Below are positions 26,166 to 38,034 of a DNA stretch of 64,000 nt, one piece after another. The stretch lies in the NCBI GenBank assembly GCA_021228405.1, contig JAJQRF010000002.1:186001-250000 (forward strand), written 5' to 3'. The notes beneath the pieces are model-generated. The model saw only the letters and a program-made list of their open reading frames with translations, had not been told where the DNA came from and did not search any database. Both the position numbers and the translations under genes were made by a program. Source of the stretch: Pyrinomonadaceae bacterium (GTDB lineage Bacteria; Acidobacteriota; Blastocatellia; Pyrinomonadales; Pyrinomonadaceae). The first letter of the stretch is position 1; the number at the start of each line of letters is the position of its first letter.

Positions 26166-27557
26166 ATGTTTGAAATTAACAGAATAATTGACACGGACAG
26201 TTACAAATCATCGCATTGGCTTCAATACCCGCCAAATACGACGCGGGCGTTTTTCTATCTCGAATCGCGCGGTTCGGATCGGGATTGGAATGAAACGGTG
26301 TTTTTCGGTTTGCAGTATTTGCTGAAAAATTATTTTCTCGCGCCGCTGACGCAAGGTATGGTCGAAGAAGCGCGTGAAGTCATTACCGCGCACGGACTTC
26401 CGTTTAATTATGAAGGCTGGACGAATTTGATTAACAAGCATCAAGGCAAATTGCCTTTGCGGATTCGCGCCGTCGCGGAAGGAACGGTCGTGCCGCTGCA
26501 CAATGTTTTGATGACGGTTGAAACGACCGACGACGAATTCGCGTGGGTTGGAAGTTGGTTTGAAACTCAGCTTTTGCGCGTTTGGTATTCGATCACGGTG
26601 GCGACGCAATCGTTTCAGATCAAAAAAGACGTTTACAAATATTTGAGTGAAACGGCGGACGATGCCGACGCGGAAATCGCATTCAAGGTTCACGATTTCG
26701 GCGCGCGCGGCGTTTCAAGTCAGGAAACGGCGGCAATCGGCGGCGCGGCGCACCTCGTCAATTTTATGGGAACCGACACGATGGCATCCTTACTTTTACA
26801 CCGCAAATTTTATCACGCTGAAATGGCAGGTTTTTCGATTCCGGCGGCGGAACATTCGACGATCACGAGCTGGGGACGCGAAAACGAAGTCGAAGCTTAT
26901 CGAAATATGCTGAAAAATTTTGCGAAACCGGATTCCCTCGTCGCGGTCGTTTCCGATTCGTGGAATATTTTTAACGCCGTCGAAAAAATCTGGGGTGAAC
27001 AGCTAAAACAGGAAGTTGTCGATTCGGGCGCGACGGTCGTGATTCGTCCCGATTCGGGCGAACCGATCGAAGTTGTTTCCAAAGTCGCTCAACTTTTGAG
27101 CGAAAAATTCGGTTACGAGATCAATTCAAAAGGTTACAAAGTCTTGAAAAACGTCCGCATTATCCAGGGCGACGGCGTAAATCAGGATTCGATCAAAGCG
27201 ATTTTGGAAAGATTAAAATCGGAAGGATTTTCCGCATCGAACATCGCTTTCGGCATCGGCGGCAGTCTTTTGCAAAAGGTAAACCGCGACACTTTGAAGT
27301 TTGCTTATAAATGTTCGGCAATCATCACAAACGGCGAATTGCGCGAAGTTTACAAACAGCCGATCACAGATTCGGGTAAAAACTCGAAACGCGGAAGGTT
27401 GGATTTGATAAAAGACGAAAATGGCGAATTTAAGACCGTAAAGATTGAAACGAAAGACGACATCAGTATTGAAAATTCACAGCTTCGCACTGTTTTTGAA
27501 AACGGCGAATTGCTGACAGATGATAATTTAGAGGCGATTCGCGAGAGAGCAAAGTAA
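26166..27557 (+). CDS. nadV: Nicotinamide phosphoribosyltransferase
   Basis: 463 residues, the length of NadV/NAMPT. It converts nicotinamide and PRPP to NMN, the substrate of NadM just upstream. Visible family blocks are IDTDSYKSSHWLQYPPNT at the N terminus, FYLESRG, HDFGARGVSSQETAAIGGAA, GTDTMASL, IPAAEHSTITSWGRE, VVIRPDSGEP, and RIIQGDGVN with GIGGSLLQKVNRDT. The gene starts 52 bp after nadM, so they are likely co-transcribed. No deamidase gene is nearby, so this organism can salvage nicotinamide directly. Confidence 0.94.
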   Translation: MFEINRIIDTDSYKSSHWLQYPPNTTRAFFYLESRGSDRDWNETVFFGLQYLLKNYFLAPLTQGMVEEAREVITAHGLPFNYEGWTNLINKHQGKLPLRIRAVAEGTVVPLHNVLMTVETTDDEFAWVGSWFETQLLRVWYSITVATQSFQIKKDVYKYLSETADDADAEIAFKVHDFGARGVSSQETAAIGGAAHLVNFMGTDTMASLLLHRKFYHAEMAGFSIPAAEHSTITSWGRENEVEAYRNMLKNFAKPDSLVAVVSDSWNIFNAVEKIWGEQLKQEVVDSGATVVIRPDSGEPIEVVSKVAQLLSEKFGYEINSKGYKVLKNVRIIQGDGVNQDSIKAILERLKSEGFSASNIAFGIGGSLLQKVNRDTLKFAYKCSAIITNGELREVYKQPITDSGKNSKRGRLDLIKDENGEFKTVKIETKDDISIENSQLRTVFENGELLTDDNLEAIRERAK

Positions 27558-27567
27558 TCGAAAATAA

Positions 27568-27649
27568 GAACGCGGATCGGGCGGATTTTTCGGACAAACT
27601 TTATAAATAAAATCCGTTTTTATCTGCCGAATCCGTCCGACCCGCGTTC
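27568..27649. repeat. Foldback between convergent genes, GAACGCGG family
   Basis: The left arm 27568-27596 (GAACGCGGATCGGGCGGATT and on) is largely complementary to the right arm 27621-27649. It lies between the nadV stop and the convergent alkyltransferase-like gene and probably works as a terminator for both. Confidence 0.7.
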
Positions 27650-27658
27650 AAATTTCTT

Positions 27659-28021
27659 TCACCCAAAAAGACTCGGCTGATCGTCCGGTTTTTCCTCAAA
27701 ACCTTCGGGAAACCAACGGTATTTTTCCAGATCGCATTTGCCTTTGTCGTTGAAAATCACGCCTTCTTCTTCGAGAATTTTCTGCTGTATGTTGTGCGGA
27801 AGCAGTAATTTATCGGTCGAACATTTCCCTTGCGAATTTATCACGCGCTGCCACGGAACATTTTCCGAATCAGCCGCGTGCATCACATATCCGACCGTTC
27901 GCGCCGTATAGCCTTCTCCCAAAATTCCGGCGATCTGTCCGTAGGTCATCACACGCGCCGACGGGATTTTGCGGACAATTTCATAAACTTTCTCACGGTA
28001 AGTTCTATCATCAACATTCAT
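27659..28021 (-). CDS. atl: Alkyltransferase-like (ATL) DNA-binding protein
   Basis: 120 residues of the MGMT C-terminal fold: VRKIPSARVMTYGQIAGILG (helix-turn-helix) and GYVMHAADSENVPWQRVINS. The active-site PCHRV of real methyltransferases reads PWQRV, with Trp in place of the acceptor Cys, the hallmark of ATL proteins. ATLs bind O6-alkylguanine and hand it to nucleotide excision repair. It starts 5 bp after the AAA+ ATPase gene stop, so it rides the 28-36 kb transcript or a sub-operon. Confidence 0.92.
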   Translation of the reverse strand: MNVDDRTYREKVYEIVRKIPSARVMTYGQIAGILGEGYTARTVGYVMHAADSENVPWQRVINSQGKCSTDKLLLPHNIQQKILEEEGVIFNDKGKCDLEKYRWFPEGFEEKPDDQPSLFG

Positions 28022-28026
28022 AAAAA

Positions 28027-29904
28027 CTATCTTCGATTTCCGACCGAAAATCTGAGAGTTTCGAGTTTTTGCTGGAGGTCGTCAGCCGACAATTCGGCAT
28101 ATTTTTCGGGTAAAAGTTTACGATTGGAACACTCGAAAACGGCGAGATGTTCCATAAACTCGAGCATTGTCGTGTCGCGGCTCGGAAAATAATCGGCAAA
28201 TGCGGTTTGCAGGTTTTCGGCAGTTATCAACGGATTTTCCTCGGAAGCTTTTGCCGCATTTTCGCCCGCCAAAAGTAAAACGGCTTCGATGTCCGCCGCG
28301 CTGTAGCCGACCATTTTTTCCCAGATGTCGCTTTCATCCAGCACATTTTCGGCGACATTCAGTTTATTTTTCCTGGCGACGGCTTTTCCGATGGCGAAAA
28401 CTTCCGTGACCGTTTGCGGGTAGAAAAACGGGATTTTTCGGTCGAGCCGTCCGGCACGTTTGAGATCGATGTCGATCTGATCGGGACGATTCGACATCAA
28501 AATGAACAAAACCCGTCCGCGATTCGACGTGTCGGACATAAATTCCTTCATTTTCGCAATAATGCGCGAAGAAGTCCCGTCGTCGCCTTCGGATTCGCCG
28601 CCGTTGCCGAAACTGCGGTCGGCTTCATCGATAATCACGATAACCTGCCCGATCGCTTTGATGACGCTCAAAACTTTTTCGAGATTTCCTTCGGTCGCGC
28701 CGACCCATTTCGAGCGGATATTTTTCAATTTGACCGCCGTCATTTTCGCCTCGCCTGCAAAAGCCGTCGCGAAAAACGTTTTTCCGGTTCCCTGCGCACC
28801 CGTGAAAAGCAAACCCATCGGAACGCGGTTATAAAAACCGTCGCGCATATTTTTGGCAATAAAACGTAAATCTTCCTTGATCGCTTCCTGTCCGCCGACG
28901 ACCTCGAAACCGAATTTCGGTTCGATAAATTCGAGCAAACCGAAACATTCTCGTTCGATGATCTCGCGTTTGCGCTGAAAGATCAGCCGGTCGCGTTCCT
29001 GCGCGGCTTTTTCCTGTAAGTCCTTCGCCGTTTGATCGGCTGAATCTTTTCTTTCCGGCGCGAGAAGTTTAACTATTTCTTCATTTGTCTTTTCGAGCGT
29101 AAGTTGTGCCAACTCTTTCGCACGAGACTGAACGTCCTCGGTTCCGCCGAGCAGTCCCGCGATAAATTGAGTTCTTTCTTCCAGACTCGCGCCTTCGCTC
29201 TGATGCGGCGTGAGAATCGAAGTGATCTGCAAAAGCTTCAAGCCCGCCGTGATTTCCGCGTAACGATTTTGCGCGTTCTCGGTCATCGAATTGTCCGTTA
29301 AGGCAATTGCCCGTTTCCGCGTTTCGGTGTCGGGCAATGGCACTTCGATTGCCGCAACTCGCGGATTTGCAATAATTTTCGGCGAAAGTTCGGATAAATT
29401 TTCGGTCATTATAATGACGATATTATCCTTCTGATGAATGTTCGGCAGAAACGACCAGCGATGAAGCGTGACGATGGCGGCGCGGTCGGTATCCGCCTGA
29501 AACGAAGGATCGCCCGCCGGTGCAAGCGTTTCCGAATATTCCAGAATCAGCGCATTGCGCGAAGAAGTTAAAATATTCGTGCCCGTCAGCAAAATTTCCA
29601 GAGCTTCGAGCCATTGCGTTTTTGAATGCGCGTTCGTCAAATCTTCCAAAACGCCGAGCGCGTCTTTTCTGCCGTCATCGTAATTATTACGATAAGCCGT
29701 GCGGAAACCTTGCGAAATGTTGAAAACTCCGACCAAATCCTTGTTCGACTTTAAAACTTCGTTGACGAGAAAATCGGTCAGTGAAAGCAATTTCCCGTTG
29801 TGCAGAATCGTGTCGTAAACATTGCCGAAAAGCACGAAAACCGATGCTTCGCCGCGCAGATAACGGCGTTTCAACTCATTTGTCCATTCAGGTAATTGGC
29901 TCAT
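28027..29904 (-). CDS. AAA+ ATPase with degenerate N-terminal AAA-like half
   Basis: 625 residues. The C-terminal half is an active AAA+ module: GAQGTGKT Walker A (about 369-376), VIVIIDEADRS Walker B (about 420), LFILMSNRPDQIDIDLKRAGRLDRKIPF with arginine fingers (blocks LMSNRP and RAGRLDRKI) and GYSAADIEAVLLLAGE. The N-terminal 330 residues retain AAA-like shape (DNIVIIMTENLSELSPKI, PLPDTETRKRAI) but lack Walker motifs, recalling the two-part layout of Ycf46-like ATPases. A coiled stretch (about 275-320) joins the halves. It is the last large gene of the PspA/ABC cluster. A remodelling role on PspA or the membrane complex is inference. Confidence 0.85.
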   Translation of the reverse strand: MSQLPEWTNELKRRYLRGEASVFVLFGNVYDTILHNGKLLSLTDFLVNEVLKSNKDLVGVFNISQGFRTAYRNNYDDGRKDALGVLEDLTNAHSKTQWLEALEILLTGTNILTSSRNALILEYSETLAPAGDPSFQADTDRAAIVTLHRWSFLPNIHQKDNIVIIMTENLSELSPKIIANPRVAAIEVPLPDTETRKRAIALTDNSMTENAQNRYAEITAGLKLLQITSILTPHQSEGASLEERTQFIAGLLGGTEDVQSRAKELAQLTLEKTNEEIVKLLAPERKDSADQTAKDLQEKAAQERDRLIFQRKREIIERECFGLLEFIEPKFGFEVVGGQEAIKEDLRFIAKNMRDGFYNRVPMGLLFTGAQGTGKTFFATAFAGEAKMTAVKLKNIRSKWVGATEGNLEKVLSVIKAIGQVIVIIDEADRSFGNGGESEGDDGTSSRIIAKMKEFMSDTSNRGRVLFILMSNRPDQIDIDLKRAGRLDRKIPFFYPQTVTEVFAIGKAVARKNKLNVAENVLDESDIWEKMVGYSAADIEAVLLLAGENAAKASEENPLITAENLQTAFADYFPSRDTTMLEFMEHLAVFECSNRKLLPEKYAELSADDLQQKLETLRFSVGNRR

Positions 29905-29968
29905 TGACTGATTTCATCGTCGGTTCATTTTCAACGAAAATAACGAATAAATGCACCGGCGGCTAAAT

Positions 29969-30730
29969 TTATTTATTTCCTTCCGTGACGGGATTCGGCT
30001 GACCTTCGAGAAGCGGCACGATGATTTCCGCCAAACGCTGTTCTTCCGCCACGCGGCGCGCCGCAAAAGATTCGGCTTGACGCTTCATTTCGGCGGTTTC
30101 GGTTCGTAAAGCGTCCATCTCGGCATTTTTCCGTTCGAGATACTGCTTTACTTCTTCGTTGATCTGCTGAATCATCTGCGAATTGTTCGCTTCGGTTTGC
30201 TGTGCGCGGTCGTTGAGCATTTTTTGATACGCATCCAGAGCGCGGTCGCGTTTGACGGCATCGTTTACGGGCACGTCGGGCGTGACGTTTTGCGCTTTCA
30301 GAGCCATTTTTACAACGAGTGCCTTCGTGCTCATCGGCTGATCCTTGAGCGTTGCGTCCTGTAAAAGTTCGTTGAGTTTATCGACCGTAAAAGCCGATTC
30401 GTCAACGCCGGCTTCGGCATAAATATCGGCAAAATTTTTGCCCGACATATCGTCGCCGCTCAATTCAAACTCGGGTGACGGTTCGCTTTCCGCCATTTCA
30501 GCGACCGTGTTCGGGGTCGGCGGCGGCACATCGTAATGCTCGGGTTCTTCCTCAACTTTTGAAATAAAAAATCCGCCGATGGATTTCAAAAACGACGAAC
30601 CGCCGCTCGGTTTTGCCGATTCTTCATCGACGGGTTCAGGGACGACATCTTCCGTCGGCGCGTAATTTGAACCGCTCGTTAAATCGTCAACTTCGCGTAA
30701 AAGTTTATCTAAATCCGGGTTTCTAGCCAT
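29969..30730 (-). CDS. Acidic linker and coiled-coil hypothetical protein of the PspA/ABC cluster
   Basis: 253 residues. No family recognised. The N-terminal 110 residues are acidic and Pro-rich (DVVPEPVDEES, DVPPPTPNTVAEMAESEPSPE), probably disordered, with a short hydrophobic patch (SFLKSIGGFFISKVEEE). Residues about 110-170 form a helical module. The C-terminal 80 residues are a long coiled coil (INEEVKQYLERKNAEMDALR, TETAEMKRQAESFAARR). AGGA stands before the ATG. It sits between the two-TM protein and the AAA+ ATPase, so an adaptor role is plausible. Confidence 0.75.
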   Translation of the reverse strand: MARNPDLDKLLREVDDLTSGSNYAPTEDVVPEPVDEESAKPSGGSSFLKSIGGFFISKVEEEPEHYDVPPPTPNTVAEMAESEPSPEFELSGDDMSGKNFADIYAEAGVDESAFTVDKLNELLQDATLKDQPMSTKALVVKMALKAQNVTPDVPVNDAVKRDRALDAYQKMLNDRAQQTEANNSQMIQQINEEVKQYLERKNAEMDALRTETAEMKRQAESFAARRVAEEQRLAEIIVPLLEGQPNPVTEGNK

Positions 30731-30747
30731 TTTTTCCTCTTAATAAA

Positions 30748-31596
30748 TTATTTGATTCTTCTCAAATTTGATTGCCTTTTGGCTTGTGAATTCGTTTTCT
30801 GCGAAAGCGGCGCGGGAATCGAACTTTCATTTGAATCGCCTAAAACGTCTTCATAAGTCGCCTTCAATTCTTCGTCGATGTTGAGCGTCAGTAATAGATT
30901 ATCGACCTGCGACGAAACATTCGCGGGATCGGCAACCGTGTAAACTTCATCGTGCAAAAGATTCAGCGAATTTTTCACAACTGAAAGCCGTGCCGCCAGA
31001 AGTCTTAACAGATCGCTCAACTGCATCGTTCTTTGCAAACGCTGTTTGATGATTCGCACGTTTTGCGCCAAAACTTCGCGGACTTTCGGCGATTTTTCTT
31101 TTTCCAGAGCGGCTTCGTTATGCTGTAATTCGCTTTGCAATCTTTGCGTTAAATTTACAACGTTTCGGCTCGATGAAAGATGATGCGCCTGCAACATTCT
31201 GACATATTCAAAACGAAACGTGCCGAGCTTGTTTATCAGGTCGGACATCAAAAAATTGCCCGTATTTCCTTGAGTTTTCCAACGATTTTCGATTTCTTCG
31301 CAAAGATATTTGACACTCTCAAAATCGTTCTGGTATTCCATCGGAAGACTTGCAACGATTTCCTGTTCGCGGATTTTGATGTTTTCCTTATCGTCTATCT
31401 GCGCCTTCAATCTGATGTAATGCTGAACGATCGGCATTTGCGCCAGAAGAAAAGCGGCGACTTGTCCGCCTAAAAGCAATGCCCCAAAGCCGATGAAATT
31501 GATCGTCACCATCAGCAGAAACATAATGCCGATGAAACCCAAATTCCATTGACTCAAAAAGACTTCCTTAACGTAATTCGGCTCATTCTGTGCCAT
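30748..31596 (-). CDS. Two-TM coiled-coil membrane protein of the PspA/ABC cluster
   Basis: 282 residues. Two adjacent TM helices lie near residues 19-55 (LGFIGIMFLLMVTINFIGF and LLLGGQVAAFLLAQMPI). A long cytosolic helical region follows, with segments such as SRNVVNLTQRLQSELQHNEA, EVLAQNVRIIKQRLQ and LSDLLRLLAARLSVVKNSL. The C terminus is basic (QAKRQSNLRRIK). No family is recognised. It starts 6 bp after the ABC ATPase stop, so it is tightly coupled to the transporter genes and could be an extra membrane subunit. Confidence 0.78.
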   Translation of the reverse strand: MAQNEPNYVKEVFLSQWNLGFIGIMFLLMVTINFIGFGALLLGGQVAAFLLAQMPIVQHYIRLKAQIDDKENIKIREQEIVASLPMEYQNDFESVKYLCEEIENRWKTQGNTGNFLMSDLINKLGTFRFEYVRMLQAHHLSSSRNVVNLTQRLQSELQHNEAALEKEKSPKVREVLAQNVRIIKQRLQRTMQLSDLLRLLAARLSVVKNSLNLLHDEVYTVADPANVSSQVDNLLLTLNIDEELKATYEDVLGDSNESSIPAPLSQKTNSQAKRQSNLRRIK

Positions 31597-31602
31597 AAAT
31601 CT

Positions 31603-32424
31603 TTAGTTTCGCGCAATCACCAAACGCGGGAAATGAACATATTTTATCTCTTTTTTGATTTCGAGAAAACGCGGCAAATCTTCAATATCAGGTTGATAAG
31701 CCAAACCTTCGGCGATCATATCGTATTCTTTGACGAAATATGCGCCGCCTTTTTCTTCCGTATCGTTCGGCTTTCCGAGCAGATGAACGTGATCGGAAAT
31801 TATCATTGCCGAGGTCACGTCGTGCGTCACGATGATAAAAGTATTGTCCGTATGCTGTTCCGCCGTGTGTGTTAATAAATTGATGACTTTCTGAATATTG
31901 TTCGGATCGAGTCCCGAAAACGGTTCGTCCAAAATCACATACCGACGCTCCTGAATAAGCTGTTGCGCGATCGCCACGCGCTGACGCTGACCGCCGGAAA
32001 GCTGCATCGGATATGAATCCGCCTGTCTGACAAGTTCAAATTCTTCGAGATATTTTAACGCTTTCGCTTTTGCTTCCTGCGCCGACAAACCGCCGTTTTT
32101 GGCAGGTTCGACCAGATTGTTCAGCACGGTTTGATCGTCAAAAAGCGGATAACGCTGGAAAACTACGCCGATGTCTCCGATCTTGACTTCACGCATCGAG
32201 CCGTCTTTGATAATTACTCTGCCCGAATCGGGCTTATCCAATCCGGCTAAAATTCTCAACAAAGTAGTTTTCCCGCCGCCCGAAGGTCCCAAAATGCTCA
32301 GAATCTGCGGTTTTTCGGGAATGTTCAAAATCCTCAAATTTACATCCGACAAAACCTGCAAAGTCTTGCCGTCATTGAGCGGAAAACTTTTCGAGACATT
32401 ATCGATGTTTAGTAACTCTTCCAT
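31603..32424 (-). CDS. ABC transporter ATP-binding protein, nitrate/sulfonate/taurine-type
   Basis: 273 residues with Walker A GPSGGGKTTLLR, Q-loop FQRYPLFDDQTV, signature LSGGQRQRVAIAQQL, Walker B YVILDEPFSGLD and the H-loop VTHDVTSAM. The closest layout is that of the SsuB/TauB/NrtD group. The C-terminal 60 residues (KGGAYFVKEYDMIAEGLAYQ and on) extend past the usual domain. It pairs with the permease upstream and shares a transcript with the downstream two-TM protein. The substrate is unknown. Confidence 0.92.
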   Translation of the reverse strand: MEELLNIDNVSKSFPLNDGKTLQVLSDVNLRILNIPEKPQILSILGPSGGGKTTLLRILAGLDKPDSGRVIIKDGSMREVKIGDIGVVFQRYPLFDDQTVLNNLVEPAKNGGLSAQEAKAKALKYLEEFELVRQADSYPMQLSGGQRQRVAIAQQLIQERRYVILDEPFSGLDPNNIQKVINLLTHTAEQHTDNTFIIVTHDVTSAMIISDHVHLLGKPNDTEEKGGAYFVKEYDMIAEGLAYQPDIEDLPRFLEIKKEIKYVHFPRLVIARN

Positions 32425-32428
32425 AATT

Positions 32429-32526
32429 CATTTATCATTCATCATTTATCATTTATCAACTTTCAAATTTTAATTGTCGCTGTGATTTTCACATTTCGAC
32501 AGATGTTAAATGATGAATGATAAATG
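32429..32526. repeat. Heptamer-repeat hairpin between permease and ABC ATPase genes
   Basis: CATTTATCATTCATCATTT (32429-32447) pairs perfectly with its complement at 32508-32526. Repeat units are TTTATCA/AAATGAT 7-mers, the same family as at 23.7 kb. The hairpin fills the spacer between two genes that should be co-expressed. Confidence 0.9.
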
Positions 32527-32534
32527 ATAAATGT

Positions 32535-33377
32535 TTACGCTCTTTCGGAAATTGTCGTGTAGGGAAACAAGATTCGTTTCAGCCAATAAAAAAACTGATC
32601 TTCAAGAATAGCGATAATACCGATAATTATCAGATAAACATAAACTTCGGCTTTCTGGTTAGTCGATGAATATGAATAGATCGCCGCGCCGATTCCGCCT
32701 TCGGTGCGGTTAAAGGTTTCGATGGCGACGATCATCACCCAACCCATCGCCGCACTCTGCGCGACAATATCGATCATCGCGGGCAAAGTCGGACGCAGAA
32801 CGACCGTCCAGAAAACCTTAAAATCGCCGTAATTCAAAACCCGTGCTAGTTCGTATTTCAACTTCGGAATTTGTGCGATTTCCGCCGTCATCGAAGTTAT
32901 CAAAAAGAACGCCATTCCCGTTGACAGCATCGCGACCTTCATCGACCAGCCGATCGTGAAGATCGAAAGAAATACCAAGTTAAACGCAACAATCGGCAAA
33001 TATCTGAACCATTGCAGAATCTGGTTGAGCGGCTGAAGAATCGGCAAAACGCTGAAATATGCAATGAGAAGCGAAACCACCGAAGCAAAAAACAACCCGA
33101 CAATGTTGAGTTTCAGCGTCGTCCACGTGTTGTAAACGAGATTGCTCGTGTCGTTTGCTTCGGACGCGAACATTCTCTGAAATGCCGCCAAAACCTCGCT
33201 CGGATACGGGATTCCCTGAATCGGCGTAAACATCCAGAACAGAAACAGAATCACGATCCAGATGACGAAAAGATTTGCCCGCATAAAACGCGCAGGCTCA
33301 CCGCAAAAACGAAACGTTTCGCTGAAAATATTTTGACGCGAAGCGGATTGATTATTTTTCTCGACTTGTGTAACCAT
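32535..33377 (-). CDS. ABC transporter permease, nitrate/sulfonate/taurine-type
   Basis: 280 residues from ATG 33377 (MVTQVEKNNQSASRQN); a TTG at 33389 is an alternative. About six TM helices are visible (for example LFVIWIVILFLFWMF, IVGLFFASVVSLLIAYFSV, LSTGMAFFLITSMTAEIA, VYVYLIIIGIIAILEDQFFY). The coupling-loop region ELARVLNYGDFKVFWTVVLR and PTLPAMI fits the SsuC/TauC family, although the EAA motif is altered. The partner binding protein is encoded upstream, separated by one oppositely oriented gene. Confidence 0.88.
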   Translation of the reverse strand: MVTQVEKNNQSASRQNIFSETFRFCGEPARFMRANLFVIWIVILFLFWMFTPIQGIPYPSEVLAAFQRMFASEANDTSNLVYNTWTTLKLNIVGLFFASVVSLLIAYFSVLPILQPLNQILQWFRYLPIVAFNLVFLSIFTIGWSMKVAMLSTGMAFFLITSMTAEIAQIPKLKYELARVLNYGDFKVFWTVVLRPTLPAMIDIVAQSAAMGWVMIVAIETFNRTEGGIGAAIYSYSSTNQKAEVYVYLIIIGIIAILEDQFFYWLKRILFPYTTISERA

Positions 33378-33427
33378 AAATGCGGACAAGCTTTAACAAT
33401 TTAAAATAAAAAATTAAGGAGAATTTT

Positions 33428-33808
33428 ATGTCGCAAATTGCAGATCAAGAACACGGAAAATTCAAAGTTTTTGCCGGAAAACTCGGTGCAAACAATGAAC
33501 TCGGCGAACTCGCCGATAAAGTTTCGGCTTTCGCCGCCGAAAATAAAATCGCCGCTAAAAGCATCGGCGTAGAATATTTGGAATCATCCGAAAGTCTAAT
33601 TATCACATTAGGTTATCGTGATGACGAGGAACATTATCCGATCAAACTCGAAACCGTGAATCTCGGAAAAATGGACATCGGACAAGATTTTTCCGCTCTC
33701 GAACAAAAAATGTCGGACGCAAGCGGCTCAGTCAATAAAATTATCTGTCACGAACTTTTTGTCACCGAAGACAAAGATTTTTTGATGGTCTTTATGACGC
33801 ATCAATAA
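33428..33808 (+). CDS. Unknown 126-residue protein, opposite strand inside the PspA/ABC cluster
   Basis: A soluble acidic protein that I do not recognise (FKVFAGKLGANNELGELADK, AAKSIGVEYLESSESLIITL, NKIICHELFVTEDKDFLMVF). It has a strong ribosome site (AAGGAG 6 bp before ATG). It is transcribed against the surrounding genes: divergent from the permease (50 bp between starts) and convergent with the OmpA-fused binding protein. A short alpha/beta fold is likely. Its placement suggests a linked but separately expressed role. Confidence 0.8.
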   Translation: MSQIADQEHGKFKVFAGKLGANNELGELADKVSAFAAENKIAAKSIGVEYLESSESLIITLGYRDDEEHYPIKLETVNLGKMDIGQDFSALEQKMSDASGSVNKIICHELFVTEDKDFLMVFMTHQ

Positions 33809-33822
33809 AACCAATCAAACAA

Positions 33823-33885
33823 ACGGAAACGGAAAATGGAAAATCGTAAAGTATGAATTTCCATTTTCCGTTTTGCGTTCTGCGT
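33823..33885. repeat. Heptamer-repeat foldback between convergent genes
   Basis: Nine 7-bp units: ACGGAAA, CGGAAAA, TGGAAAA, TCGTAAA, GTATGAA, TTTCCAT, TTTCCGT, TTTGCGT, TCTGCGT. The outer ones are complementary, giving a hairpin around 33852. It separates the ends of the 126-residue gene and the OmpA-fused gene and can serve as a terminator. Confidence 0.85.
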
Positions 33886-35666
33886 TATTTAAGAACGATC
33901 GTCACGCGGCGATTTTTTGCTTTTTCTTCGCTCGTCTGCGCGTCCTTAGTTCCGGCAACCGGGTTCAGCGAACCGTAACCATCAACCGAAATAATGCGCT
34001 GATCGTTGATGTTTACGCGCGATTCGTCCGAAGCCTTGAGCCACGTCCAAACCGATTGCGCGCGCGCTTTCGACAATTCGATATTCTTGCCCGCATCGCC
34101 CGTATTGTCCGTGTGACCTTCGACGATAATTTTCGTATTCGACGCACGAATCAGCAAACTGCGGATTTCATTGAGTTTGGCGATTTCCGAAGGTTTCAGT
34201 TCCGACGAACCCGGATCGAAATTAATGTCAAAGTTGGCTTTAACGACCGTATTTCCGCTGTTGACCTGCGACGAATTTCCCGTTTCGGTCTTGACTTCGC
34301 CGACTTCGTCCGACATCTTTTTCACAAAAGTCAGATCGACAACCTGATCGACGGGCGTAAAACTCGGCATTCTTTCGGGCAAAAGTTTTTGCAAACGTTT
34401 GCCGTGTTCGTTATAAGAAATCCCGAAAACGCTGTCTGCCAACGGCTTATTGCTTCCGACACCGAAAAGATGGCGGTTATCGGCAATATCATTAACACGC
34501 GAACCGCCGAGCCTGACACCGTTATCTTCGACAATATCGTAATATTTCGCCCAGAAGCTCGGACCTTTGCCTTCCATATTGAAAACCTGCGCGTTCAAAG
34601 CGGCAACACGCGTTTTAAAGTAATTCGGATCGGATTTGATCTTCGCACCGGCACGCGCCAGACAACGCAAAAGCGTTTCAATATATTCGGGATGTTTTTT
34701 GATGAAATCTTCGGTCGTAAACAAAATATTCGGCATCATCGCCGAATATTGTTCGGTCGAGATGATTTTCTGTAATTTCTCGGTTTTATCTTTGTAAATC
34801 ACCGAACTGCGTCCCTGCGCCGCCATCACGTCGCCCGGAGTCCACGTCGAAACGCCGTCGATACTGCGGTCTTCCGTCTGCCCGGTTTTCACGTTTTTCA
34901 GCGAAACCTTCGCGTTTGCAATAAATTTCTGCGCCGCTTCGATGTGATCGGTCGCGTTGACGAAATTGATCGCGTCGGGATTGTAAACTTTTTCATCAGG
35001 GTTTACGGGAATTTTATTGTCCGCCGCCCAATTTACGACCACGTTGAAATCGCAATACGGAACCGCCGTCACGATCAACGCGCCTTTCGCGCTTTGCGGG
35101 TCTTTTTTCCAGGATTCGGGTCCCATCAAAGCATCTTCGCCCGAAGAATAACCGCCGCTCCAGACGACTTTTGCCTTCGGTCCGCGAAGGAGTTTGTTTG
35201 CGCCCGCAATATCGACCGCCGACTGATCGCCCGTCGTCGTCACGAACTGAATGTTGTTTGAAGCCAACATTTCGACTTGCTTGGAAGTGTCGTTTTCGAC
35301 GATCAGCTTCGTGTTTTTAATGCCCGCCTGATAAAGCAAACTGTCGGGATGATCGCCCGATTTTCCGGTTCCGCCGACAGCGTCGATCAGCGCGCTTTGC
35401 GCTTGCCACGTCCAGATTCCGATCGTTACTTCAGGATCATCCGTAGTCGGCTTGGGCGGCTTCACGTCCGTCACGGGAAGATTTTCGCGTTTAATGTCTT
35501 CCGTCCGCTCAAGTGTCTGCTCGGTTTTGCTGACATCGGTTTTCGGCGAAAGTTTTTCCCAAATTCCGAACTGCCGCGCCGCTACATATAAACATCCGCC
35601 CAGAACCGCGACCGCGAGAAGAATCGCGCCCGGTCCGAGTTGGTAATTGCCAATTCTGATTGCCAT
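33885..35666 (-). CDS. ABC solute-binding protein fused to a C-terminal OmpA peptidoglycan-binding domain
   Basis: 593 residues from ATG 35666 (MAIRIGNYQLGPGAILLAVA). An N-terminal TM anchor (about 10-32) leads into a NMT1/SsuA-like periplasmic binding domain (about 65-430: VTIGIWTWQAQSALIDAVGG, NNIQFVTTTGDQSAVDIAG, GALIVTAVPYCDFNVVVNW, FIKKHPEYIETLLRCLARAG). A linker follows, then an OmpA-like domain (about 475-593) with INFDPGSSELKP, VEGHTDNTGDAGKNIELSKA and NRRVTI. A GTG at 35714 would add a repeat-encoded extension (NPKSEIRNPKF). The fusion could sense a ligand while holding the cell wall. It is upstream of the ABC permease and downstream of pspA. Confidence 0.9.
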   Translation of the reverse strand: MAIRIGNYQLGPGAILLAVAVLGGCLYVAARQFGIWEKLSPKTDVSKTEQTLERTEDIKRENLPVTDVKPPKPTTDDPEVTIGIWTWQAQSALIDAVGGTGKSGDHPDSLLYQAGIKNTKLIVENDTSKQVEMLASNNIQFVTTTGDQSAVDIAGANKLLRGPKAKVVWSGGYSSGEDALMGPESWKKDPQSAKGALIVTAVPYCDFNVVVNWAADNKIPVNPDEKVYNPDAINFVNATDHIEAAQKFIANAKVSLKNVKTGQTEDRSIDGVSTWTPGDVMAAQGRSSVIYKDKTEKLQKIISTEQYSAMMPNILFTTEDFIKKHPEYIETLLRCLARAGAKIKSDPNYFKTRVAALNAQVFNMEGKGPSFWAKYYDIVEDNGVRLGGSRVNDIADNRHLFGVGSNKPLADSVFGISYNEHGKRLQKLLPERMPSFTPVDQVVDLTFVKKMSDEVGEVKTETGNSSQVNSGNTVVKANFDINFDPGSSELKPSEIAKLNEIRSLLIRASNTKIIVEGHTDNTGDAGKNIELSKARAQSVWTWLKASDESRVNINDQRIISVDGYGSLNPVAGTKDAQTSEEKAKNRRVTIVLK

Positions 35667-35672
35667 ATAGTT

Positions 35673-35828
35673 GAATTTTGGATTTCGGATTTCGGATTTC
35701 GGATTTTTGTCCACAATCGAAAATCGAATCCTTTTTTATCGTGAATAAACTGAATTTGAAACACAGTGGATAAGATTTCGGATTCAAAAATAAATCCAAA
35801 ATCCAAAATCTAAAATCCAAGATCAAAT
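35673..35828. repeat. Heptamer-repeat runs GGATTTC and ATCCAAA between pspA and the binding-protein gene
   Basis: 35680-35700 holds three exact GGATTTC copies (plus GGATTTT), and 35794-35828 holds ATCCAAA, ATCCAAA, ATCTAAA, ATCCAAG, ATCAAAT. The two runs are roughly complementary and can pair across about 90 bp. Confidence 0.9.
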
Positions 35829-36530
35829 TTACATTGTTTTGTTCGTGCCCTGCTGACCTTGCTGGGCGGCAACGTGCTGTTTGCGAAGCTCTTCAAACTT
35901 GCTTTTCGCCTGCACGTTTCCGACCTGCGATTTGATCTTTTCGAGCCGCGCATCGAGCGAACTTTCGTTCAATTCCTTGCCCAGATTCGCCGCCGCGACA
36001 CGATTTTTAATATGTGTGCGAACGTTATCCAGAGCCTTCACGTCACTGTCCATCGAAAGCCCGTCGAGCTGTTCCTGAACTTTGATTCGCGCGTCCGCAC
36101 TGGCAAGTTTCGCCATCATCCGATCTTTTTCGGCAACGAGCTTGTTGCGTTCGGATTGAATTCGCAAAAGCGCGGATTTCACATCGTCCGCATCTTTTTT
36201 GCCCTGTTCGTATTCGACATTAAGATCGGCGACTTCTGCCTGCAATGCTTCGAGTTTTTCAACCAAGAGCGTGCCGATCTCTTCATCGCCGTTTTGCACG
36301 GCAACTTGCAATTGTGCTTCAATGTCTTTCAACTCGCGTGTTTTCGTTTCATAGCGGTCTTCGAGTTCATCCCGACGGCGAATGATCGCCGCCGCCGCAT
36401 TGCGCAATTGCACGGCTTTCGTCGTGATCGCGTCGATCGAATTCTGGTAAACAATTTCGGGGTGTTCGGTTTCGACTTTAGAAACAAAAAGCGAGAAAAA
36501 ACCTTTAATGACATTCCACAAGCGTCCCAT
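35829..36530 (-). CDS. pspA: PspA/IM30 (phage shock protein A) family protein
   Basis: 233 residues, nearly all alpha-helical coiled coil, as in ESCRT-III-like PspA. The N-terminal amphipathic helix (LWNVIKGFFSLFVSKVETE) binds membranes; then IVYQNSIDAITTKAVQLRNA and long heptads follow (RRRDELEDRYETKTRELKDI, ALQAEVADLNVEYEQG). The C terminus (AAQQGQQGTNKTM) is short. AAAGGAG lies before the ATG and a clear sigma-70 promoter upstream. It heads the minus-strand cluster. No pspBC or PspF gene is nearby. Confidence 0.9.
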   Translation of the reverse strand: MGRLWNVIKGFFSLFVSKVETEHPEIVYQNSIDAITTKAVQLRNAAAAIIRRRDELEDRYETKTRELKDIEAQLQVAVQNGDEEIGTLLVEKLEALQAEVADLNVEYEQGKKDADDVKSALLRIQSERNKLVAEKDRMMAKLASADARIKVQEQLDGLSMDSDVKALDNVRTHIKNRVAAANLGKELNESSLDARLEKIKSQVGNVQAKSKFEELRKQHVAAQQGQQGTNKTM

Positions 36531-36605
36531 CGTTTTCTCCTTTGGTTTAGTGTTAGAAACGCTAATTCCAGCTAAAAATAAAAAAAAATTCGCTAAAACC
36601 TAAAC

Positions 36606-36635
36606 AGTATAGGTTAAAAACAAATTTTTCGTCAA
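36606..36635 (-). promoter_or_regulatory. Sigma-70 promoter of the pspA cluster
   Basis: On the minus strand TTGACG (36630-36635) and TATACT (36606-36611) with an 18-bp spacer, about 75 bp before the pspA ATG. No sigma-54 GG-GC element is visible, unlike enterobacterial psp. Confidence 0.65.
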
Positions 36636-36718
36636 AATATTTAATGATTTATGGTTTTTTGAGCATTTTACTCACACCGGAGAATTATACGCCGAAACCG
36701 AATTTCGTGTTCCGAAAA

Positions 36719-36967
36719 TCAATTAAATCTTTTCTTAAATTTTCCTTCACGCGCTTTTACCCATTCGCGCCATTCTTCGATGGCTTTTTCCCTTGCTTCC
36801 TGCGAACTCGCAGGTTGAAAATTCAATCAGGTCGAAGTCGCATCGCGCAGACACATTTCCGCCAGAAAACGAACCTGCAACTCTTCGCTCGCCAATAGAT
36901 CGATCAAGTCGTTAATCGAATTTTTCGACATTTTCCGCCGCAATTCGGCAAATTCCTTTCGTTTCAT
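36719..36967 (-). pseudogene. Small ORF split by an in-frame TGA
   Basis: From ATG 36967 the frame encodes MKRKEFAELRRKMSKNSIND and on, a charged helical protein. At codon 47 a TGA (36827-36829) interrupts it; the same frame then continues coherently (FQPASSQEAREKAIEEWREW and on) to a second TGA at 36719. The downstream part resembles the acidobacterial tail in which residues like EAREKAIEEWREWV end HEAT-type proteins. It starts 7 bp after kptA. It is most likely a nonsense-inactivated gene, a read-through case or a sequencing error. Confidence 0.6.
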
Positions 36968-36973
36968 ACTTTT

Positions 36974-37519
36974 TCACAATAACTTCAAAAATCTCGGCGG
37001 CACTTCGTCCGTCAGCCAAACGCCGTTTGCCGAAACAAAAAACTCGTGGTTTTCCGCAAGCATCGCCTTTGTGTTAACTTCAAGAAGCACAGGCTTTCCG
37101 TATCTTGCGCCGACTCTTCGTGCGGTTTCCGTATCTGCCGAAAGATGAACGTGATGACGTTTCATTTTCTGCAAACCGCTCGAAAAGATCACGCCGACAT
37201 TTCTTTCAGCCGTTCCGTGATAAAGAATTTCAGGCGGCGTTTTTCGTTCAAATTCAATTTCGACATTTATCGAATGACCTTGACTCGCACGAATTTTCGT
37301 CTTTGTTTCGTCGAAAGCAAAACGCTTTTTGTCGTTCGCCGCAACAACTTCTTCGAGTTCCGCAACCGTGAAAGATTTTCCGTGTGCGGCACAGGCTTTT
37401 CTTAAATCTTCTATTTTTAACCAACCGTTTTCGTCTAAACTCAGCCCGACCGTTTCGGGCGCGTGGCGCAAAACGAGGCTTAAAAATTTGCTGATCTTTG
37501 TTTTTCGCTTTTCGTCCAT
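36974..37519 (-). CDS. kptA: RNA 2'-phosphotransferase (Tpt1/KptA family)
   Basis: 181 residues matching KptA: KFLSLVLRHAPETVGLSLDENGW at the N terminus (KFLSLVLRH, GLSLDENGW), IRASQGHSINV, PPEILYHGTAERN, MKRHHVHLSADTETARRVGARYG and VWLTDEVPPRFL. The family transfers the 2'-phosphate of spliced RNA to NAD, giving ADP-ribose 1'',2''-cyclic phosphate; the bacterial substrate is uncertain. Catalytic Arg, His, Arg, Arg positions appear present. The ATG overlaps the stop of the upstream oxidoreductase gene (TAATG), so translation is coupled. Confidence 0.95.
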   Translation of the reverse strand: MDEKRKTKISKFLSLVLRHAPETVGLSLDENGWLKIEDLRKACAAHGKSFTVAELEEVVAANDKKRFAFDETKTKIRASQGHSINVEIEFERKTPPEILYHGTAERNVGVIFSSGLQKMKRHHVHLSADTETARRVGARYGKPVLLEVNTKAMLAENHEFFVSANGVWLTDEVPPRFLKLL

Positions 37520-38034
37520 TATTGAATTTTCTTCACTTTCAGCGAAACGATCTGACGCGCCCAGCGTCCGTGTTTTTTATCGTCGGGCACGATCAATTGC
37601 CACGTGCCGTCGTTTTCGTCGAGCGGTTTTCCGTCGCGGGTGTCGGCAAGTAAAATTACTTTGTCGGTATATTCGGGAGCGATTTCGGCGATTGCAAAAG
37701 CGACCTTGTAACCGTCGGCGGCTTCGACCAAAAGATAGGCGGCAAGTTCCTTGCCGCGCATTTCGCCTTTGCCGATTTTTGCTCCCGCATCGAGCAAAAC
37801 GTCGCTCAGATTAAAGCCCGAATAAAAGGCTTCCTTTTCGTCGTGGGGCATTTTCGCTTTGATTTCGCGGCGTGTGAATTTTGCCAAATCTTTAATCTTC
37901 AAAGACAAAGTTTTTCCGCCTTCCACTTCGATCTTTAAGGTCGGGTCGGCTTTTATTGCGGGTTTCGTTGCATTTTGAGCCGAAACCGTAAAAGTAAAAA
38001 GTGAAAATAAAATTGCCAGATTGATGATTTTCAT
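37519..38034 (-). CDS. Exported molybdopterin-dependent-oxidoreductase-like protein
   Basis: 171 residues from ATG 38034 with a signal peptide (FSLFTFTVSAQNA). The mature part (YSGFNLSDVLLDAGAKIG, GYKVAFAIAEIAPEYTDKVILLADTRDG, WQLIVPDDKKHGRWARQIVSLKV in short blocks SLKVKKIQ) resembles the compact sulfite-oxidase-type domain without a molybdopterin-binding Cys. Enzyme activity is therefore uncertain; such proteins may be structural. It overlaps kptA and follows the cyclase-like gene. Confidence 0.8.
   Translation of the reverse strand: MKIINLAILFSLFTFTVSAQNATKPAIKADPTLKIEVEGGKTLSLKIKDLAKFTRREIKAKMPHDEKEAFYSGFNLSDVLLDAGAKIGKGEMRGKELAAYLLVEAADGYKVAFAIAEIAPEYTDKVILLADTRDGKPLDENDGTWQLIVPDDKKHGRWARQIVSLKVKKIQ

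Follow-up and report, generated by a model that had tools for sequence, protein, structure and literature searches.

A conserved gene cluster combining PspA, a CDC48-like AAA+ ATPase and wall-bound binding proteins, and a betaproteobacterial variant without linked ABC genes

Organization of the cluster

A 64,000-nucleotide stretch of the genome of a Pyrinomonadaceae bacterium (GCA_021228405.1, contig JAJQRF010000002.1, positions 186,001-250,000; hereafter the window, to which all positions refer) carries seven genes, all on the minus strand between 28027 and 36530, that combine a PspA homologue with a AAA+ ATPase, an ABC transporter pair and a peptidoglycan-binding solute-binding protein. The cluster is real and conserved, and the association of its genes is already in print, in the passages that Ravi et al. 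(2024; PMC11237479) devote to this operon type. New here are counts of co-occurrence, the acidic and 126-aa members of the cluster, and a variant in which sensing and import come apart. Tentatively, the cluster may well encode a wall-anchored, ligand-responsive machine for membrane maintenance.

From pspA onwards the genes encode a PspA/IM30 homologue of the ESCRT-III superfamily (35829-36530, 233 aa; Pfam PF04012 and PDB profile); SBP-OmpA, a membrane-anchored solute-binding protein (SBP) of the TauA/SsuA/NMT1 type with a C-terminal OmpA-like peptidoglycan-binding domain (33885-35714, likely start 35666; PF00691); a NitT/TauT-like ABC permease (32535-33389, likely start ATG 33377; PF00528); an ABC ATPase (31603-32424; PF00005); TMcc, a 282-aa coiled-coil protein with two transmembrane (TM) segments (30748-31596), described from its structure model and conservation in the cluster; an acidic adaptor-like protein of 253 aa (29969-30730), described from its structure model and co-occurrence; and a double AAA+ ATPase with a degenerate first half and a CDC48/VAT-like second half (28027-29904; PF00004). 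The initial annotation of this region is confirmed in part. The seven genes it named are present where it placed them, domain searches agree with the names, and the spacing of 6 bp from the ATPase gene to TMcc is borne out. Its single-strand arrangement holds for the seven genes, but the run is broken by a plus-strand open reading frame (ORF) of 126 codons with a good ribosome-binding site, at 33428-33808 between SBP-OmpA and the permease. Homologues of its product (61-67% identical) are encoded co-directionally inside the same gene run in loci L035 and L038, which shows it to be a real gene.

Conservation of the gene association

With a profile of the AAA+ protein, the best 80 of at least 480 confirmed loci were examined. 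Sixty of these have at least 6 kb of upstream sequence and were used for counting, the 20 with less than 6 kb being left out; a partner was counted if it lay anywhere within the fetched locus. All six partners of the AAA+ gene are present in 40 of the 60 loci, which belong to Acidobacteriota, Myxococcota, Pseudomonadota and one member of the Geobacteraceae. Singly, PspA is found in 56, TMcc in 54 and the acidic protein in 54, and three loci have no partner. The same picture is given by a panel of 247 genomes of the phylum, in which SBP-OmpA is matched strongly, with 370 bits or more, in 25, TMcc in 49, the AAA+ protein in 38 and the acidic protein in 19. The 25 genomes with strong SBP-OmpA include 25 with TMcc, 24 with the AAA+ protein and 16 with the acidic protein, and TMcc and the AAA+ protein are both present in all 19 genomes with the acidic protein. 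Pairwise Fisher p-values range from 1.6e-15 to 1.7e-22 over the 247 genomes, treated as unrelated, and the association is far beyond chance. That these genes form a conserved unit, as first proposed, is thus borne out by the locus counts and by co-occurrence alike. Three genomes with weak matches were left out of the panel co-occurrence (G192, TMcc, E 5e-4; G060 and G152, AAA+), and SBP-OmpA-like fusions scoring below 370 bits, which were uncounted, adjoin TMcc or the AAA+ gene in G005, G012, G016, G021 and G198.

TMcc has a wider distribution. Among 38 TMcc loci examined (of 46 matches other than the window), PspA is in the fetched stretch in 30 and the complete trio of SBP-OmpA, permease and ATPase in 16; TMcc is therefore usually accompanied by PspA and often found without ABC genes. 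The outcome is mixed for the earlier concern that the two coiled-coil proteins might occur apart from pspA and the ABC genes; in the panel, the acidic protein is always accompanied by TMcc and the AAA+ protein. Of the 49 panel genomes with TMcc, 17 are without this AAA+ protein, including all 16 other genomes of the window's family. On another contig (L034:9813-11504) the genome of the window itself encodes PspA and TMcc side by side a second time, with no AAA+ gene nearby, as do the fetched loci of its family's other genomes. The window genome has a single AAA+ protein of this kind (E up to 1e-35).

Further genes recur at these loci. Of the 80 AAA+ loci, 43 also contain a TerB-like gene (for example L147:11807-12268; Pfam checked on one member), which directly follows the AAA+ gene in 42 and precedes it in L176. 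A protein of about 290 aa is encoded in nine loci (for example L138:8223-9095), before PspA in eight and after the AAA+ gene in L161; the one member checked has no Pfam match.

A variant operon without SBP-OmpA, permease and ATPase

In 13 of the 60 AAA+ loci, all from Betaproteobacteria and mostly from Comamonadaceae where named, the operon lacks SBP-OmpA, the permease and the ATPase, and the ABC input is replaced by a different wall-bound binding protein. The replacements are a Sel1-like protein with an N-terminal TM anchor (TM-Sel1, 153-175 aa, its Sel1 matches lying below Pfam's cut-off) and a secreted-looking PotF/SpuD-like protein with two PG_binding_1 domains. The order of the acidic protein, TMcc, PspA and AAA+ genes is kept. 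The gene for the peptidoglycan-binding PotF-like protein is present in 15 of the 80 AAA+ loci; operon contents were read in five of these 15, Pfam was run on two and a PDB search on one. By Pfam the two PG_binding_1 domains are N-terminal, and in the protein of the Hydrogenophaga taeniospiralis locus L149 the binding domain matches the structures of the polyamine-transport protein 3ttk (E 6e-62), PotF and PotD. Three aspartates, at positions which we take to be the polyamine pocket, are kept in all 15 aligned proteins, and membership of the PotF/SpuD sequence family together with these acidic residues marks the protein as a putative PotF-type binding protein. Among 150 Hydrogenophaga-family genomes, the peptidoglycan-binding part is found in three (E up to 1e-20), in each case at this operon.

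The 15 variant loci form one betaproteobacterial group in a tree of the AAA+ proteins (quick method, midpoint root, with the window on a long branch), and this group is nested inside the ABC form, beside ABC-bearing loci of Rubrivivax and Comamonadaceae, with support of 99. No full-length SBP-OmpA match was found in the 13 variant genomes, the best (135 bits) being without the N-terminal part. The proper reference for this score is 177-213 bits, starting from profile position 5-8, as found in 8 of 8 ABC-form relatives on the proteobacterial/Geobacteraceae branch, and not the 370-bit level of Acidobacteriota; the margin is smaller and the conclusion holds.

The anchor of TM-Sel1 resembles that of the proteobacterial SBP-OmpA proteins, with up to 22 of 34 residues identical where 102 control proteins reach no more than 13, and 21 of 41 SBP-OmpA anchors exceed this control maximum (anchors were chosen by an LTPxxK-like motif, found in 41 of 44 SBP-OmpA and 13 of 13 TM-Sel1 proteins). 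The SBP-OmpA profile built before the new loci were added matches two of the 13 TM-Sel1 proteins weakly (E 0.02 and 0.04) and none of the rest, and the likeness therefore rests on the direct comparison of anchors. We considered TM-Sel1 as a form of SBP-OmpA and rejected this, the iterated profile having caught the shared anchor only.

An ABC ATPase gene is present outside the operon in three of the 15 variant loci. It lies upstream in L139 and L145, both from Hydrogenophaga, and on the opposite strand downstream of the operon in L146; L162 has one weak ATPase match. The L139 ATPase gene lies behind a permease-like ORF that was missed by our permease profile, which is NitT/TauT-specific. The absence of a permease from the variant operon therefore rests on other evidence, namely the ABC ATPase profile over the 15 loci, the contents read in five of the 15, the 126-gene-free run of L194, and PF00528 searches in four genomes, each of which has at least 50-66 permease-domain matches elsewhere.

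Predicted architecture of the proteins

The PspA_IM30 family model covers residues 3-216 of the 233-residue PspA with a score of 63.5 bits (cut-off 33.9; E 2.8e-17), and a profile of 30 relatives matches solved PspA/Vipp1 structures (best E 8e-28). SBP-OmpA has one predicted TM segment at its N-terminus and a Pfam OmpA match (E 1.2e-16); its NMT1 match is below the cut-off, and a profile of the binding domain matches taurine- and sulfonate-binding structures (best E 3.7e-11). The start at ATG 35666 is the more likely because homologues align from there, and the gap between pspA and SBP-OmpA (35667-35828) is filled by short imperfect repeats GATTTTGGATT / AAATCCGAAATCC that can be read as an ORF and give a false N-terminus. 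A lipobox-like LGGC is present in the window protein, but its cysteine is missing in the three closest homologues, and a membrane anchor is therefore likelier than a lipoprotein. The permease scores 28.8 bits against the BPD_transp_1 cut-off of 26.4, and its best NCBIfam matches, SaoP and NtrB, are both below their own cut-offs; the ATPase (E 4.3e-27) has Walker A, LSGGQ and Walker B motifs.

TMcc has no Pfam family. In its structure model (pLDDT 84, pTM 0.72), helices at residues 16-31 and 34-52 are followed by long helices, which suggests an N-terminal TM hairpin and, presumably in the cytosol, a long coiled coil. The acidic protein has a net charge of -23 and is predicted (pLDDT 79, pTM 0.51) to consist of a short N-terminal helix, a disordered linker, a small helical domain and a 92-residue helix; Pfam gives it no family over the cut-off, a fold search gives no match at E up to 0.001, and comparison with PspA detected no relation. 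The AAA+ protein has a Pfam AAA match at residues 365-493 (E 1.2e-27); Walker A occurs once, at residue 369, from which it follows that the N-terminal half is degenerate. Its best-scoring solved relatives are VAT/CDC48, whose chains are matched by two stretches of the protein, and the CDC48 model spans residues 164-605, though with a score that falls far short of the model's cut-off. Pfam at E up to 1 gave neither an MIT domain nor a Vps4 C-terminal domain.

The window cluster is of mixed make-up. Its PspA (about 52%) and AAA+ protein (about 55%) are closest to the common Acidobacteriota form, SBP-OmpA, permease, ATPase, TMcc and the acidic protein are closest (43-67%) to loci L035, L037 and L038, and the 126-aa protein is closest to L035 and L038 only. 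The input part and the core part are therefore separable. A third form is seen in four Acidobacteriota genomes (L180-L183), with a PspA-like protein, a more distant AAA+ protein and no TMcc match. L180-L182 encode a permease, an ATPase, two SBP-OmpA-like proteins and one more protein that matches weakly, and L183, truncated by a contig end, has one SBP-OmpA-like protein and a fragment; some OmpA matches in this form are below Pfam's cut-off.

Possible functions of the cluster

A plausible scenario is that SBP-OmpA would be held between the inner membrane, by its N-terminal TM anchor, and the peptidoglycan, by its OmpA domain, and that together with the ABC pair it would report a ligand, or stretch between wall and membrane, to TMcc. 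The coiled coil of TMcc would reach into the cytoplasm and act together with polymerized PspA at the inner leaflet; from this polymer or complex the CDC48-like double AAA+ protein would pull subunits with ATP, as Vps4 does for ESCRT-III, and the acidic protein is a likely adaptor. Gene content, domain composition, conservation and, in one lineage, the exchange of the ABC input for another wall-bound binding protein are observations; which proteins touch one another, which way a signal would run and whether the AAA+ protein acts on PspA or TMcc are all inferred. The published background, from the parts of PMC11746142 bearing on PspA and Vps4, is that PspA assembles into rods, has weak ATPase activity on its own and can remodel membranes in vitro, and that Vps4 removes and unfolds ESCRT-III subunits; by analogy, the AAA+ protein would recycle PspA or TMcc polymers.

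The variant bears on the input side of this scenario. A wall-held binding domain outlives the linked transporter, and this, short of proof, makes a wall-anchored ligand sensor that controls remodelling by PspA and the AAA+ protein more likely than a plain importer; such a sensor is the simplest reading of the variant. The proposal in the initial annotation of a binding protein that senses a ligand or the wall, and does not simply import, is supported to this extent, although import could still take place, since the ABC ATPase carries its usual motifs, and we regard that interpretation overall as partly supported. A polyamine as putative ligand of the variant fits the remark of Ravi et al. (PMC11237479), in the passages concerned, that other PspA operons carry polyamine genes.

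A bolder form of the sensor reading, which we consider possible but doubtful, is an ESCRT-III/AAA+ remodelling machine in which exchangeable peptidoglycan-anchored binding proteins switch a PspA-TMcc polymer that the CDC48-like motor disassembles, the ABC pair of the window being a signal transducer and not an importer. Its inputs would be of two types, a sulfonate/nitrate type with an ABC pair or a polyamine type without a linked transporter. TMcc may be an ESCRT-III protein, although hhalign, Pfam, a PDB profile search and fold searches did not confirm this. One CdvB2 filament is in the Foldseek list for TMcc, at rank 32 with a probability of 0.82, and PspA/Vipp1 is not among the best 50 rows of either TMcc fold-search list.

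Several observations weigh against a ligand-responsive machine built on PspA, TMcc and the AAA+ protein. The 16 other panel genomes of the window's family all have TMcc and have neither the AAA+ protein nor strong SBP-OmpA, and L035, L037 and L038 have no PspA or AAA+ gene in the fetched 20-kb stretches, both being elsewhere in those genomes. TMcc has no detectable relation to PspA by hhalign (probability 2.4%), Snf7 is missing among the families listed for 51 TMcc members (25 of 33, E up to 0.1), and the fold search returned BAR-like and designed helical bundles. The AAA+ protein need not be the motor of PspA, which has weak ATPase activity of its own and remodels membranes (from the same parts of PMC11746142). 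The window ABC pair looks intact and ordinary in sequence. As to the variant, 20 of the 41 SBP-OmpA anchors, most of them from Acidobacteriota-type proteins, resemble the Sel1 anchor no more than the best control does, the loss of the ABC genes is one evolutionary event, and the PotF-like protein could feed a permease encoded elsewhere in the genome.

The best-surviving alternative, to which we give a real but clearly minor share of belief, is that the genes encode a plain importer for a solute resembling sulfonate, nitrate or phosphate, that its binding protein is tethered to the wall incidentally, and that PspA, TMcc and the AAA+ protein protect or assemble the membrane around it; this reading is also nearest to the account of Ravi et al. 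(2024; PMC11237479) in the passages concerned. The permease and ATPase are from ordinary importer families with intact motifs, the binding protein is of the TauA/SsuA type, and the two SBP-OmpA-like proteins that share one permease, ATPase, PspA-like protein and AAA+ protein in L180-L182 fit a multi-ligand importer. The nested betaproteobacterial operons argue otherwise, being without permease and ATPase yet keeping a wall-bound binding protein of another family.

A further reading is a mechanical tether or strain gauge, in which wall and membrane are linked by the OmpA or peptidoglycan-binding domain and the binding of a ligand has become secondary or been lost. An N-terminal membrane anchor with a wall-binding end is as in MotB and ZorB, and unrelated domains keep the wall-binding function in both variants; but a solute-binding domain, needless for a pure tether, is likewise kept in both, as are the pocket aspartates in the polyamine type, and we think this reading improbable. 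That the cluster is a loose neighbourhood of independently useful genes moved together by horizontal transfer is very improbable given the tight co-occurrence and gene order across several phyla, even though the cluster is in only one of 17 panel genomes of the window's family and its parts, with PspA and AAA+ closest to one locus set and the other genes to another, can be exchanged.

A role in defence was considered and rejected, the PADLOC matches being generic AAA, ABC and OmpA similarities. The ZorB matches are confined to the OmpA end of SBP-OmpA, and a plasmid search with SBP-OmpA gave the OmpA end only, among the matches listed (15 of 198).

To our knowledge, the signals that time and place PspA, and the disassembly of its polymers, are open questions outside the PspF/PspBC and Lia models. 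A conserved locus of PspA, a CDC48-like motor and wall-bound binding proteins gives the question of PspA control named genes, and a lineage that has a wall-bound polyamine-type binding protein and no linked transporter makes the choice between sensor and importer directly testable in cultivated Betaproteobacteria.

Neighbouring genes and signals

The AAA+ gene is followed after a 5-bp gap by a minus-strand gene (27659-28021) for an alkyltransferase-like protein of the MGMT fold (PF01035, E 1.9e-19), which is perhaps the last gene of the transcription unit; its product is probably not a component of the machine. It reads PWQRV at the place of what we take to be the MGMT motif PCHRV, and a similar protein is encoded after the AAA+ gene in three of the 80 AAA+ loci. 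Among promoter-like matches in the region the best is TTGACG-18-TATACT (minus strand, 36606-36635), 76 bp before pspA; this call is weak because the number of such sites in the region, 10, is that expected by chance (10.5). A gene for a KptA/Tpt1 RNA 2'-phosphotransferase (36974-37519) adjoins the cluster. No Rfam families were found in positions 27000-38000.

Comparison with known systems

The initial annotation could not place the exact set in a published system, and in this it is superseded. The operon type described by Ravi et al. (2024; PMC11237479), in the one paragraph given there to the ABC form, comprises PspA, TM-Snf7, a double AAA+ protein with an inactive N-terminal copy, ABC genes and a solute-binding/OmpA protein (example OGG56892.1). 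The window shares with it PspA, a TM protein, the double AAA+ protein with an inactive N-terminal copy, and the ABC ATPase, permease and solute-binding protein with OmpA domain in one locus. Where those passages have TM-Snf7, the window has TMcc, with its TM hairpin and coiled coil, an hhalign probability to PspA of 2.4% and an ambiguous fold search. The passages concerned make no mention of an ABC-less form with a peptidoglycan-binding PotF-like protein, of the acidic partner or of the 126-aa gene; the words TerB, Sel1 and PG_binding are absent from the main text, in which peptidoglycan is named twice, both times for the OmpA fusion. Literature searches, with most subscription journals outside their coverage, found neither the ABC-less form nor, when the parts of the locus were combined, a functional study of it.

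With ESCRT-III and Vps4 (in archaea CdvB and CdvC) the cluster has in common that a protein of the PspA/ESCRT-III superfamily is encoded with a AAA+ unfoldase, for which ATP-driven removal of subunits is proposed. Unlike Vps4, its AAA+ protein is double and CDC48/VAT-like, with a degenerate first half and no MIT or Vps4 C-terminal domain in Pfam. The NitT/TauT importers (TauABC, SsuABC, NrtABCD) have the same families of permease, ATPase and binding domain, and transport may be a function of the window genes as well; the window binding protein differs in being fused to a membrane anchor and an OmpA domain and in its linkage to PspA, TMcc and the AAA+ protein. The variant protein, finally, shares its binding domain with PotF and SpuD, from which it differs by its two N-terminal PG_binding_1 domains and by an operon that encloses no permease or ATPase gene.

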